From Thermoanaerobacterales bacterium (GTDB taxonomy: Bacteria > Bacillota > Thermosediminibacteria > Thermosediminibacterales > Tepidanaerobacteraceae): 64,000 nucleotides of DNA. The stretch covers positions 1 to 64,000 of the forward strand of contig DUMA01000001.1 of assembly GCA_012840135.1 (NCBI GenBank). The letters are read 5' to 3'. The translations under genes were made by a program, and so were the position numbers. Below, piece after piece: positions 41,980-46,839 of this stretch (positions are counted from its first letter, which is position 1; every line of letters starts with the position of its first letter). The notes under the pieces were generated by a model, which saw only the letters and a list, made by a program, of their open reading frames with translations, ran no database searches and had not been told where the DNA came from.

Positions 41980-42684
41980 CTATTCCCCCAGATAAGCCTT
42001 TTTTACCTGTTCGTTGTTCAGCAGATTTTTAGCCGTATCTTCCAGGACTATCCGTCCGGTTTCTATTACATATCCTTTGTGCGCTATGGAAAGCGCCATA
42101 TGGGCGTTCTGTTCCACCAGGAGGATGGTGGTGCCGCTCTGGTTTATTTCCTGGATGATATCGAAGATATTGGAAACTATCATTGGAGCAAGGCCCATGG
42201 AAGGCTCATCCAGAAGAAGCAGCTTCGGCCTTGCCATCAGAGCCCTCCCTATGGCCAGCATCTGCTGCTCGCCGCCCGATAGAGTGCCTGCTATCTGTTT
42301 TAAGCGCTGCTTCAAAATTGGAAAGAGCTCAAAGACCCGCTCCAGATCTTTTCTTATAAGATTCTTATCCCCATTCAGATATCCTCCGAGCTGCAGATTC
42401 TCGAGCACGGTCATGCGGGGGAAAACCCTCCGGCCTTCCGGGACCATGGCTATGCCTGAACCCACGATATCCGAGGTGGGTTTTCCCGTTATATCCTTTC
42501 CCCGAAAAAAAATCTTTCCAGAACTTATACTCACCAGGCCGCAGATGGCCTTCAGGGTGGTAGTTTTTCCCGCCCCGTTGGCGCCTATTACCGTCACTAT
42601 CTCTCCCTGATTGATTTCCAGTGAAATGCCCTTCAATGCCTGGATGTTTCCGTAGTGTGTCACAACATTGTCCAGTCTTAACAT
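41980..42684 (-). CDS. livF: Branched-chain amino acid ABC transporter ATPase LivF
   Basis: A 234-residue ATPase with Walker A 'Gly-Ala-Asn-Gly-Ala-Gly-Lys-Thr-Thr', signature 'Leu-Ser-Gly-Gly-Glu-Gln-Gln-Met', and Walker B 'Leu-Leu-Leu-Leu-Asp-Glu-Pro-Ser-Met-Gly-Leu-Ala-Pro', the last phrase diagnostic for LivF. It ends 'Lys-Lys-Ala-Tyr-Leu-Gly-Glu'. It overlaps livG by seven bases and is the last gene of the operon. Confidence 0.95.
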   Translation of the reverse strand: MLRLDNVVTHYGNIQALKGISLEINQGEIVTVIGANGAGKTTTLKAICGLVSISSGKIFFRGKDITGKPTSDIVGSGIAMVPEGRRVFPRMTVLENLQLGGYLNGDKNLIRKDLERVFELFPILKQRLKQIAGTLSGGEQQMLAIGRALMARPKLLLLDEPSMGLAPMIVSNIFDIIQEINQSGTTILLVEQNAHMALSIAHKGYVIETGRIVLEDTAKNLLNNEQVKKAYLGE

Positions 42685-43466
42685 GCACGGACCTCCTTGC
42701 CGGCTCTGTCGCCCAGATAAGCCTTTATGACTTTTTCGTCGTTGCGCACCTTTTCGGGAGGCCCGTCGGCGATCTTTTTGCCATAATCCAGCACCATTAT
42801 CCTCTGGGAGATACCCATGACCAGCTTCATATCATGTTCTATCAAGAGAACGGTTTTCCCCATGTCGTTAATTTTATCGATAAGGTTAATCAATTCGTTA
42901 GTTTCCTGAGGGTTCATGCCGGCGGCGGGTTCATCGAGCAATATCAAATCCGGGTCCGTAGCAAGAGCCCGAGCCATTTCAAGGCGCCGCTGTTTACCGT
43001 AAGGGAGGTTTTTTGCTTTTTCCCCGGCTTCGCCGGCAAGACCTACGAAGTTGAGGATATCCATGGCCCTGTCCCGGACCTTTTTTTCTTCCTTTCTGGT
43101 GGCCGGTCCCCTGAAAATTGCTCCGAATACCCCGGTATTTGTGCGGCAATGCTGCCCTATGATGACATTATCCAGCACGCTCATTTCCCCGAAAAGCCTG
43201 ATGTTTTGAAAGGTGCGGGCAATGCCCATCTTTGTAATGTCATAGGGTTTGAGGTTTTTTATCTCCCTCTGTTTGAAGCAAATGGACCCCCGGGTGGGTG
43301 AATAAACGCCCGTAAGAAGGTTAAAAAGGGTGGTCTTTCCAGCGCCGTTGGGACCGATGAGGCTCAATATTTCCCCTTTGTTTATATTTATATCCACCGA
43401 ATCCAGGGCCGCCAGGCCTCCGAAAACCATGGTCAGGTCTTTACCTTCAAGCAGAGTCATTGTCAT
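42678..43466 (-). CDS. livG: Branched-chain amino acid ABC transporter ATPase LivG
   Basis: A 262-residue ATPase. Walker A is 'Gly-Pro-Asn-Gly-Ala-Gly-Lys-Thr-Thr', and the LivG hallmark 'Asp-Glu-Pro-Ala-Ala-Gly-Met-Asn-Pro-Gln-Glu' contains Walker B. The signature loop reads 'Leu-Pro-Tyr-Gly-Lys-Gln-Arg-Arg-Leu-Glu', as usual for LivG. Its ATG overlaps the livM stop by four bases. Confidence 0.95.
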   Translation of the reverse strand: MTMTLLEGKDLTMVFGGLAALDSVDININKGEILSLIGPNGAGKTTLFNLLTGVYSPTRGSICFKQREIKNLKPYDITKMGIARTFQNIRLFGEMSVLDNVIIGQHCRTNTGVFGAIFRGPATRKEEKKVRDRAMDILNFVGLAGEAGEKAKNLPYGKQRRLEMARALATDPDLILLDEPAAGMNPQETNELINLIDKINDMGKTVLLIEHDMKLVMGISQRIMVLDYGKKIADGPPEKVRNDEKVIKAYLGDRAGKEVRAC

Positions 43467-44359
43467 TGCCCTCCTTTCTCCGCAATCTTTTTGACTTTTA
43501 TTTTTCCAAAAACTGATGATTTTAGAAAATCAAAGGAAGTATCGCTCAAAAGGCCCTGAGGCCTTACGATCATCATCACCACCAGCAAAATGCCGTAAAA
43601 GACCATGCGGTACTGGGAGATGACCGGAGATACCGACCGCAAAAACTCCGGCAGGATCGTCAGTATGGTGGCGCCCAGCACGGCTCCGGATGTATTGCCC
43701 ATGCCGCCCAGGACGACCATGCACAATATTTCTATGGATTTCATGAAACCGAAATTATTGGGATTAATATAACGGAACAGGAATGCGAAAAGACCTCCTG
43801 CTATGCCGGCATAAAAGGCGCCGATGGCAAAGGCCAGGATCTTGAAGTTTGTTGTATTAATCCCCATAGCTTCGGCTGCCAGTTCATCTTCTCTGATGGC
43901 TATGAAGGATTTTCCCACCCGGGAGTTCATTATTCTGTTTAAAGAAAATATTACGAGGATGACGGCAGCTGCTACTATATATATGTTGGTTATCTTGGGA
44001 ATGCCACGAAGTCCCATGGGGCCACCAGTAATCTTGAGGTTCAGCAGGATATTCCTCATGATCTCCCCGAATCCCAGTGTCGCAATGGCAAGATAATCGC
44101 CCTTGAGCCGGAGGGTGGGGACTCCGATGATAAAGCCAAAAAAAGCTGCCGTCGCGGCTCCTATGATTAGGGCGACCAGAAAGGGGACGTGGAGTTTTAG
44201 GGCAAACAACGTGGCGGTGTAAGCTCCGATGCCCATGAAAGTAGCATGCCCAAGGGAAAGCTGTCCGGTGAAGCCCGATACGAGATTGAGACTTACTGCA
44301 AGTATTATGTTTATTCCTATTACCATTAATACCTGTAAATAATAATTCATCCACATCAC
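43463..44359 (-). CDS. livM: Branched-chain amino acid ABC transporter permease LivM
   Basis: A 298-residue permease with about nine spans. Diagnostic phrases: 'Leu-Asn-Leu-Val-Ser-Gly-Phe-Thr-Gly-Gln-Leu-Ser-Leu-Gly-His-Ala', 'Leu-Arg-Leu-Lys-Gly-Asp-Tyr-Leu-Ala-Ile-Ala-Thr-Leu-Gly-Phe-Gly-Glu' and 'Ile-Arg-Glu-Asp-Glu-Leu-Ala-Ala-Glu-Ala-Met-Gly', the ATPase-contact loop. It starts directly after the livH stop. Confidence 0.95.
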   Translation of the reverse strand: MMWMNYYLQVLMVIGINIILAVSLNLVSGFTGQLSLGHATFMGIGAYTATLFALKLHVPFLVALIIGAATAAFFGFIIGVPTLRLKGDYLAIATLGFGEIMRNILLNLKITGGPMGLRGIPKITNIYIVAAAVILVIFSLNRIMNSRVGKSFIAIREDELAAEAMGINTTNFKILAFAIGAFYAGIAGGLFAFLFRYINPNNFGFMKSIEILCMVVLGGMGNTSGAVLGATILTILPEFLRSVSPVISQYRMVFYGILLVVMMIVRPQGLLSDTSFDFLKSSVFGKIKVKKIAEKGGQ

Positions 44360-45253
44360 CTACACTTTCTCTTGAACTCTGCGGCCCATGAGTCCCGTCG
44401 GCTTAAACAGCAAAATGAGTATCAATACTGCAAAGGCTATGGCATCTTTATACTGCGACATGTATACGGCTCCCAGCACCTCAGCAAGCCCCAGAATGAG
44501 ACCTCCCACCATGGCGCCCGGGATATTGCCGATACCCCCGAGCACGGCGGCTACAAAGCCTTTAAGGCCAGGGAAGAAACCCATCATGGGGTCTGCAGAA
44601 TTAAAATATACCCCCACCAGAACTCCGGCGGCGCCTCCCAGGGCTGAACCTATAGCGAAGGTAAAGGATATAACCCTGTCTATCTTGATACCCATGAGCT
44701 GGGCTGTTTCCTTGTCCTGAGCGGTGGCCCTCATGGCCTGGCCGATTTTGGTTTTTTGTATGAGAAAATGAAGTCCAACCATGAGAAAAATGGATATAAT
44801 CAATATTAAAAGCTGCAGCGGGGAAATCTGGATGATTCCGAGATTTAAGCCCGGTGCGCTAAAATTAGCCGGAAATGCTCTCGCCTGAGGTCCCATGGCC
44901 AGTAGCGCAGCATTCTGTAAAAATATGGACACACCAATGGCGCTGATGAGAGGCGCTATCCGGTTTGCTTTTCTTAAAGGCCTGTAAGCTACCTTTTCGA
45001 TGATCACTCCCAGCATGCAGGCACCGGCCATTCCGGCAAGCAGCGCTGCAGCAAAAGGAAGTTTATATACGGTGACGGCCATCAGCCCAATAAAGGCGCC
45101 GGTCATATATATTTCGCTGTGGGCAAAATTTATTAGCTCCAGAATCCCGTAGACCATAGTGTAGCCCAAAGCTATGAGGGCATAGGTGCTTCCCAGTGTC
45201 AAACCGTTTACAACCTGTGCGAAAAACTGCGAAAAGAACATGTGGTTTTCCAT
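44360..45253 (-). CDS. livH: Branched-chain amino acid ABC transporter permease LivH
   Basis: A 297-residue permease with about eight spans. It opens 'Gln-Val-Val-Asn-Gly-Leu-Thr-Leu-Gly-Ser-Thr-Tyr-Ala-Leu-Ile-Ala-Leu-Gly-Tyr-Thr', then 'Met-Val-Tyr-Gly-Ile-Leu-Glu-Leu-Ile-Asn-Phe-Ala-His', the LivH signature, and has 'Met-Arg-Ala-Thr-Ala-Gln-Asp-Lys-Glu-Thr-Ala' as ATPase contact loop. It follows livK by 67 bases. Confidence 0.95.
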   Translation of the reverse strand: MENHMFFSQFFAQVVNGLTLGSTYALIALGYTMVYGILELINFAHSEIYMTGAFIGLMAVTVYKLPFAAALLAGMAGACMLGVIIEKVAYRPLRKANRIAPLISAIGVSIFLQNAALLAMGPQARAFPANFSAPGLNLGIIQISPLQLLILIISIFLMVGLHFLIQKTKIGQAMRATAQDKETAQLMGIKIDRVISFTFAIGSALGGAAGVLVGVYFNSADPMMGFFPGLKGFVAAVLGGIGNIPGAMVGGLILGLAEVLGAVYMSQYKDAIAFAVLILILLFKPTGLMGRRVQEKV

Positions 45254-45320: not shown

Positions 45321-46505
45321 TTAACGGAGCTTGGAGAATTTGCCGTTTTCAACCTTGAGAATTATTATATCCTTTACAGCGTCGCCGTTTTCTGCAAAGG
45401 AAGTATTTCCGGTAATGCCGGGGAAGTCTTTGGTCTTTGCCATTTCTGCCTGCAGAGTTTCTCCGCCGGCGCCGTTTGCGTTCTTTATGGCGGAAAGCAG
45501 GATCTTGGCAGCATCATAAGCCTGGGCTGCGAACATGTCGGGTTCGCTGTTGAATTTTTCCTTGTAAGCTTTTACAAAGTTCTGTACGCTTTCAGCAGGG
45601 TCATCGGCGAAGAAACCAGCGGTGAATATGGCTCCCTCCACGGATTTGCCGCCCAGTTCCACCAGTTTGGGAGAATAGAATCCGTCGGCTCCCAGGATCT
45701 GGACCTTCAAGCCCTGCTCCTGAGCCTGCTGGGCTATTTTTGCAGCCTCGGTGTAATATCCTGCGATGTAAAGGGCATCAGGCTCGAATCCTTTTATCTT
45801 GGTGAGCTGTGCCCTGAAATCACTTTCGCCGTCGTTGTATGTTTCGATATCCACTACCTGTGCCAGTTCTTTGGCTTTTTTCTCAAAAGCGTTTTTGAGA
45901 GAAAGACCATAGTCGTTGTTTGTGAACATTATGGCGAATTTCTTAAGTCCCAGGTCTTTTGCGGCATATTCAGCAAGCTGTGTGGCCTGCACATCGTCGG
46001 AGAGACAGTTTCTGAAGATGTATTCTCCTATATCCGGAATACCTGTAGCCGTTGATGAAGAAGATATCATTACGACCTTGGCGTCGTTGGCAATGGGGCC
46101 TGCGGTCATGGTTTCGGAGCTCAGCACACCGCCCACTATGGCTATGACCTTATCCTGCTCGATGAGTTTTGTGGCCGCATTGGCCGCTTCGGTCTGATCT
46201 CCGCGAGTATCTTCAGAAAATAGTTTTACCTGTTTTCCGTTGATACCACCGGCTTTATTTATTTCATCTACGGCCACCTCTACCCCGTTTTTGGTGCTTA
46301 TGCCGTAGGTGGCGGTATTGCCCGTCAGAGGTCCGAGCGTACCTATCTTGATTACATCATCGCCGGCCGGCTGAGAGGAATTTGTATTTGAGGAACTGGA
46401 AGAACTGGAAGAATCAGTAGACTGGCTTTGCCCGCATCCGGCCAGAGCCAGCAGCGTTATTGCAATCACAAAGATCAGAATAGCAGTTTTTGAAATTTTA
46501 AACAT
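45321..46505 (-). CDS. livK: Branched-chain amino acid-binding lipoprotein LivK
   Basis: A 394-residue lipoprotein with lipobox Leu-Ala-Gly-Cys (Cys24) and a Ser/Asn-rich linker. The type I periplasmic-binding fold is seen in 'Ile-Lys-Ile-Gly-Thr-Leu-Gly-Pro-Leu-Thr-Gly', 'Ala-Ile-Val-Gly-Gly-Val-Leu-Ser-Ser-Glu-Thr', and 'Leu-Gly-Ala-Asp-Gly-Phe-Tyr-Ser'. It delivers Leu/Ile/Val (or related) to LivHMGF. The first gene of the operon, it lies behind a ykkC-class riboswitch with terminator. Confidence 0.93.
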   Translation of the reverse strand: MFKISKTAILIFVIAITLLALAGCGQSQSTDSSSSSSSSNTNSSQPAGDDVIKIGTLGPLTGNTATYGISTKNGVEVAVDEINKAGGINGKQVKLFSEDTRGDQTEAANAATKLIEQDKVIAIVGGVLSSETMTAGPIANDAKVVMISSSSTATGIPDIGEYIFRNCLSDDVQATQLAEYAAKDLGLKKFAIMFTNNDYGLSLKNAFEKKAKELAQVVDIETYNDGESDFRAQLTKIKGFEPDALYIAGYYTEAAKIAQQAQEQGLKVQILGADGFYSPKLVELGGKSVEGAIFTAGFFADDPAESVQNFVKAYKEKFNSEPDMFAAQAYDAAKILLSAIKNANGAGGETLQAEMAKTKDFPGITGNTSFAENGDAVKDIIILKVENGKFSKLR

Positions 46506-46595
46506 AATGAACCCCCTTTTAATAATGTCAAAAATTAAAATATTAGCACCCTAAAGGATAAGGGAACCATTAATATTTTGGCAACCACCTCCCGG

Positions 46596-46647
46596 TAAAA
46601 TAAAAACGGCATATTCACCCATGACAAAAGAAGGGTGGAACCTGCCG
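46596..46647 (-). terminator. Intrinsic terminator of the liv riboswitch expression platform
   Basis: On the minus strand CGGCA (46647-46643) plus CACCC (46637-46633) pair with GGGTG (46620-46616) and TGCCG (46611-46607), followed by TTTTTATTTTA. The CACCC arm overlaps the 3' strand of the aptamer closing stem, so the two structures exclude each other. Confidence 0.75.
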
Positions 46648-46737
46648 CTGGGGTCTTTTCTACCCACGGTGTACAATATTCTTGCTGTACCGCTCGGACC
46701 TGTCGCTTTCAGCCGGAACCCTAGGTACACTCCCACC
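46634..46737 (-). promoter_or_regulatory. ykkC-family riboswitch, probably the ppGpp subtype, controlling livKHMGF
   Basis: Read on the minus strand, the leader carries the ykkC conserved blocks in order: CTAGGGTTCCG (about 46724-46714), then GACAGGTCCGAGCG (about 46706-46693), then a GTAC-type hairpin, then ACACCGTGGG...AGAAAAGACCC. The closing stem is GGTGGGA (46737-46731) with TTCCACC (46640-46634). Ligand binding would hold TTCCACC and so block the terminator, an 'on' switch. ykkC RNAs split into guanidine, ppGpp and PRPP sensors; ppGpp types typically precede branched-chain amino acid genes, as here. The ligand is inferred from context. Confidence 0.82.
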
Positions 46738-46839
46738 AGAATCCATGATACTGTATTATAGCTTTTATATATTATAATCTAATTTTTATAAAATGTCACT
46801 AATAAAGTCATGGACTTTTATAAATTTTTTTTGCATGTT

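Follow-up and report, generated by a model that had tools for sequence, protein, structure and literature searches.

A probable ppGpp riboswitch in the leader of a livKHMGF uptake operon from Tepidanaerobacteraceae

The livKHMGF uptake operon of a Thermoanaerobacterales bacterium (Tepidanaerobacteraceae) is very probably preceded by a ppGpp riboswitch of ykkC subtype 2a, laid out as a transcriptional ON switch. The element was found on the minus strand, 129 nt upstream of livK, in a 64,000-nucleotide stretch of DNA (positions 1–64,000 of contig DUMA01000001.1, assembly GCA_012840135.1), hereafter the window. We computed its aptamer architecture, its subtype signature, the overlap between helix P0 and a terminator, its conservation in 13 genomes, the order of the operon and the presence of a RelA/SpoT gene. 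Judged on these features, the element has every sequence-testable property of the ppGpp riboswitch class. The downstream genes, assigned by family search, are as follows.

45321–46505, minus strand: livK, substrate-binding protein (Peripla_BP_6), first gene of the operon
44360–45253, minus strand: livH, permease
43463–44359, minus strand: livM, permease
42678–43466, minus strand: livG, ATPase
41980–42684, minus strand: livF, ATPase

Neighbouring genes are separated or overlap by at most 68 bases, and livKHMGF provides the amino-acid transport context that characterizes ykkC 2a RNAs. LivK scored 171.7 against an NCBIfam cut-off of 477 for branched-chain amino acid binding proteins; its substrate is therefore not certain, and we infer the exact amino acid imported.

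Using RF00442, we gathered ykkC RNAs from 61 related genomes and labelled them by their first downstream genes, which are independent of the RNA itself (liv, 13; ilv-type, 15; glutamate synthase, 11; purine, 13; and others). Except for the window's own genes, these labels were read from sequence and BLAST clustering rather than from family searches. We built one covariance model from 12 ilv-context RNAs and another from 12 pur-context RNAs, keeping the liv leaders out of both. The ilv-context model aligned over its full length (1–115/115) to positions 46736–46634 of the window (89.9 bits, E=1e-23), delimiting the following predicted features.

46634–46737, minus strand: ykkC subtype-2a (ppGpp) aptamer (ilv-context model, 89.9 bits; pur-context model, 71.7 bits; RF00442, 43.3 bits)
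46732–46737, minus strand: 5′ strand of P0, GGUGGG, an add-on helix without counterpart in guanidine-I, paired with 46639–46634 in the fold
46634–46639, minus strand: 3′ strand of P0, UCCACC, common to the aptamer and the terminator (model match, fold and livK-leader comparison)

The preliminary description of this DNA had placed ykkC core blocks in the livK leader without giving a strand. The blocks CUAGGGUUCCG, GGUCCGAG, UACACCG and AGAAAAG all lie within 46724–46655 of the minus strand, in a core with P1, P1b, P2 and P3, and the interval originally proposed, 46596–46740, covers both aptamer and terminator well. Across the 13 liv leaders, the named structure pairs in 97.6% of cells of the alignment, while P0, the extra helix closing the ends of the aptamer, is paired in 96.9%. 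The aptamer helices covary, with 6 pairs in which both sides have changed, a number reached in 0 of 500 shuffles and in no slid control; the ilv-context alignment behaved in the same way. A shifted P3 register that would set a G opposite C75 in the RF00442 alignment was rejected, as only the 4-pair register survives in relatives carrying GAGU/ACUC.

The folding energy of the whole leader is ordinary, with no excess stability (z=0.05). We left it out as evidence, and the case for the element thus rests on the covariance model and on comparative evidence. Ordinary stability would also be expected of a decayed, non-functional ykkC relic, and in one relative (L075) the aptamer is gone while a terminator-like hairpin remains. 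Intact conserved core bases, covarying helices and an overlap of P0 with the terminator that is kept in livK leaders make such decay scarcely credible here.

We compared the two context models as a test of subtype. The window scored 18 bits better with the ilv-context (ppGpp) model than with the pur-context (PRPP) model, and all 13 liv leaders shared this preference. Conversely, a purine RNA outside the training set (L024) preferred the pur-context model by 47 bits (97.3 against 50.6), although near ties among some glutamate-synthase RNAs mean that the models are imperfect sorters, to be taken as guides rather than proofs. Three positions reported to distinguish the subtypes (PMC6031431) were then located in the window. 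A pyrimidine occupies position 49 in the ppGpp and PRPP classes, where guanidine-I has A; the ppGpp guanine pairs with C75; and G96 is conserved in PRPP RNAs and not in ppGpp RNAs, and a PRPP aptamer in which it was changed to A became a ppGpp aptamer (PMC6031431).

46692, minus strand: position 49, C, where guanidine-I has A; all 13 liv leaders have C, and of the 13 pur leaders 12 have T and 1 has C
46671, minus strand: position 75, C, the expected partner of the ppGpp guanine (role from PMC6031431)
46650, minus strand: position 96, C, where the PRPP class has G; all 13 pur leaders carry G and all 13 liv leaders a C or U

The window thus carries the pyrimidine at 49 and the C at 75 of the ppGpp class and lacks the G96 of the PRPP and guanidine classes. 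Position 96 was found by counting 21 bases after C75 and 7 before A103; values for several glutamate-synthase RNAs with a shorter 3′ part were left out because the anchor was misplaced. Since G also occupies this position in some amino-acid-context relatives, including a few ilv-context RNAs, it is not an absolute marker by itself. Together, the context-labelled models and the diagnostic positions agree with the ppGpp subtype put forward in the preliminary description.

These comparisons also bear on the possibility that a PRPP riboswitch (subtype 2b) happens to precede a transporter. The RNA shares with that class (PMC5912903, PMC6031431) its overall fold, P0, a pyrimidine at 49, most core bases and the ON layout, and it reaches 71.7 bits with the pur-context model. 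However, that model is not its best match, G96 is missing, as is the CGGGUAGGUUUC 3′ block that typifies purine-linked RNAs, and the operon contains no gene of purine synthesis, so that we regard PRPP as an improbable ligand.

Rfam by itself could not settle the ligand. At gathering score, Rfam 15 gave no match in the leader; below threshold, RF00442 (Guanidine-I) matched at full length over 46735–46643 (43.3 bits, cut-off 63, E=1.2e-6), and V_AS9 and other weak matches were at chance level. RF00442 was the only ykkC model in Rfam to appear for any subtype tested, and it also scored a purine-linked PRPP-type RNA (L006) at 68.2 bits and an ilvB-linked RNA (L028) at 52.8. A best match to 'Guanidine-I' therefore does not decide the ligand. 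Such a match had been named in advance as grounds for abandoning the ppGpp assignment; nominally it did occur in Rfam, yet it is no refutation of the assignment, given that the same model catches PRPP-type RNAs. The Rfam cut-off misses the liv-type RNA, yet puts the guanidine name on purine-linked RNAs of PRPP type.

A guanidine-I riboswitch, as the name of this top match would have it, shares the P1–P3 fold and the core blocks with the window. The differences are the sub-threshold score, C rather than A at 49, C rather than G at 78 (RF00442 alignment) and the presence of P0, which is missing from guanidine-I (PMC6031431). With no guanidine gene found nearby, this identity is extremely unlikely. 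Few mutations suffice to switch the ligand of a ykkC aptamer (PMC6031431), and the preference for pppGpp varies among natural examples (PMC12373219), so another nucleotide might be sensed, such as an ADP-type ligand as in the NDP riboswitches (2c), or pppGpp specifically. The ykkC fold is common to the 2c class, whose NUDIX/HAD hydrolase context is absent here. The window retains C75, and replacement of this base by U reportedly favours adenine ligands (PMC6031431); the single NUDIX-context, 2c-like RNA found and compared (L062) has a different core, and the gene context is amino-acid uptake. We consider a different nucleotide about as improbable as PRPP.

We next examined the ppGpp-type aptamer together with the sequence that follows it.

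46606–46648, minus strand: predicted intrinsic terminator, a hairpin that overlaps the aptamer's 3′ end (70-nt stretch, −22.4 kcal/mol), with equivalents in other livK leaders
46597–46606, minus strand: U-tract of the terminator, UUUUUAUUUU
46771–46799, minus strand: predicted promoter, GTGACA–17 nt–TATAAT, 11/12 to consensus; also upstream of the aptamer in 12/13 livK leaders as GTGAC[AT]-17-TATAAT

The 5′ arm of the terminator (46648–46633) spans the 3′ strand of P0 and pairs with 46620–46606 around a loop of 12. This bears out the on-switch layout suggested earlier, in which the closing stem and the terminator share CACCC. A simple terminator scan, which permits loops of up to 8, missed the real hairpin and gave a wrong-strand candidate. 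Folding energies were −44.2 kcal/mol for the terminator form and −35.5 kcal/mol for the aptamer form, favouring the terminator by 8.7 without ligand. The aptamer and overlapping terminator precede livK in 13 genomes, 12 of them from Tepidanaerobacteraceae, and predictions place an equivalent hairpin over these aptamer bases in 13/13 livK leaders. The ON-switch layout is supported and conserved in all 13.

We propose that transcription would start just past the TATAAT at 46776–46771 and that the RNA would fold into the ykkC aptamer, its ends closed by P0. Amino-acid starvation would raise (p)ppGpp, and the alarmone would bind the aptamer with its guanine paired to C46671; both the identity of this ligand and its binding we infer. 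Bound (p)ppGpp would hold P0 closed and keep its 3′ strand (46639–46634) from the terminator, leaving polymerase to read through in vivo and the uptake operon to be made. Without (p)ppGpp, 46648–46633 would pair with 46620–46606 and transcription would stop at the U-tract. The switch is predicted to be ON because the ligand would hold P0 and P0 would block the terminator.

The promoter of the liv leaders (46801–46771 in the window; livK leaders L021–L057) shows unusual cross-genus conservation, TAGTGAC[AT]TTT...AATTAGATTATAAT, which includes parts of the spacer and looks as though a regulator might bind there too.

Besides one RelA/SpoT gene (156.9 bits), the genome itself contains, in front of a glutamate synthase gene, a second RNA of ppGpp type (G000:C54:82652-82756, 66.7 bits). 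Close homologues of livK in named records belong to Tepidanaerobacteraceae. Of the eight nearest, five have the RNA, Thermovorax (L074) and L075 are without the aptamer, and the upstream sequence of L077 is too short to judge. The livK leader of L075, a record labelled Methanococcoides sp. EBM-47, keeps the promoter as well as its hairpin; the gene is Tepidanaerobacter-like, and the record name therefore looks misassigned.

At E≤1e-12, 111/299 genomes of the phylum contained a match to the ilv-context model, a figure that overstates the ppGpp class because this threshold also picks up PRPP-type RNAs. Among the strong matches, those examined stand before ilvB, ilvE, ilvD, leuA-like, glutamate synthase, LivK and peptide or amino-acid transporter genes, while purine genes carry a CGGGUAGGUUUC-type RNA instead. 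At one locus (L028, 1611–1139, minus strand), ilvB is preceded by a ppGpp-type RNA and then a T-box leader (80.2 bits, cut-off 93), in the published ppGpp/T-box tandem arrangement. Other ppGpp-type RNAs precede an unidentified membrane protein family (L059, which starts MQLTPILALSIVLTIFAVGDVVAIK, L123, L127, L130 and L148) or, in L011, a peptidase-like gene; the literature on the class that we examined names neither context. In another genome (L124, G089), a strong ppGpp-type RNA now has a transposase-like small gene downstream, which suggests an insertion behind the switch.

Between the terminator and livK, all 13 livK leaders contain GGRGGTG, a match to the anti-Shine-Dalgarno sequence, lying 6–14 nt past the U-tract in 12 and 24 nt past it in one. 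This conserved segment is the one unusual addition to the liv leader. In the window, GGGAGGTG (46593–46586, minus strand) follows the U-tract and leads into a possible 17-codon frame, MVAKILMVPLSFRVLIF (46588–46535); L057, from the same genus, has MVIKVLLLFSISFNVVIF in its place. The liv leaders might carry a second control or stabilizing element after the terminator, either a branched-chain leader-peptide attenuator or a ribosome-loaded mRNA stabilizer coupled to the ppGpp switch, although we think this rather unlikely. The short frame is rich in Val/Ile/Leu codons in some genomes and clear only in the two same-genus copies; among the livK leaders compared, it is not conserved between genera, and in most genomes its start codons lie inside or too near the Shine-Dalgarno sequence, with poor spacing. 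For these reasons we keep the leader peptide as a lead only.

Two further features were seen in this segment. An AT-rich hairpin at 46579–46537 (minus strand), formed by AAAATATTA/TAATATTTT with an inner CCCT/AGGG and followed by AATTTTTG, lies just upstream of the livK ribosome site; its stem is kept in L057, and it may serve as a stabilizer or as a second, weak terminator. In L029, L041, L043, L048 and L049, a block AATATT[CT]ACGAATTGAGT...CTTGTCTGAA between the terminator and livK is kept in Tepidanaerobacter-like leaders despite frame shifts.

The ppGpp riboswitch (ykkC subtype 2a) was described by Sherlock, Sudarsan and Breaker (2018), as cited in PMC5912903 and PMC9481103; examples include Desulfitobacterium hafniense ilvE and Clostridiales bacterium oral taxon 876. 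The D. hafniense ilvE switch has been assayed as a reporter fusion in laboratory B. subtilis, comparing the wild type with a (p)ppGpp-null strain (PMC12373219). The window has in common with this class the core, P0, the signature at positions 49, 75 and 96, a terminator sharing aptamer nucleotides, the ON layout and the amino-acid genes. We found no essential difference, its P2 being very short, with about 3 pairs. The riboswitch class and its gene association are both already published, and the element is a clean new example. Through it, the starvation alarmone would also act directly by RNA on the branched-chain-type uptake operon of Tepidanaerobacteraceae. Taken with the copy before glutamate synthase, it suggests that at least two amino-acid supply operons of this genome are under predicted ppGpp riboswitches.
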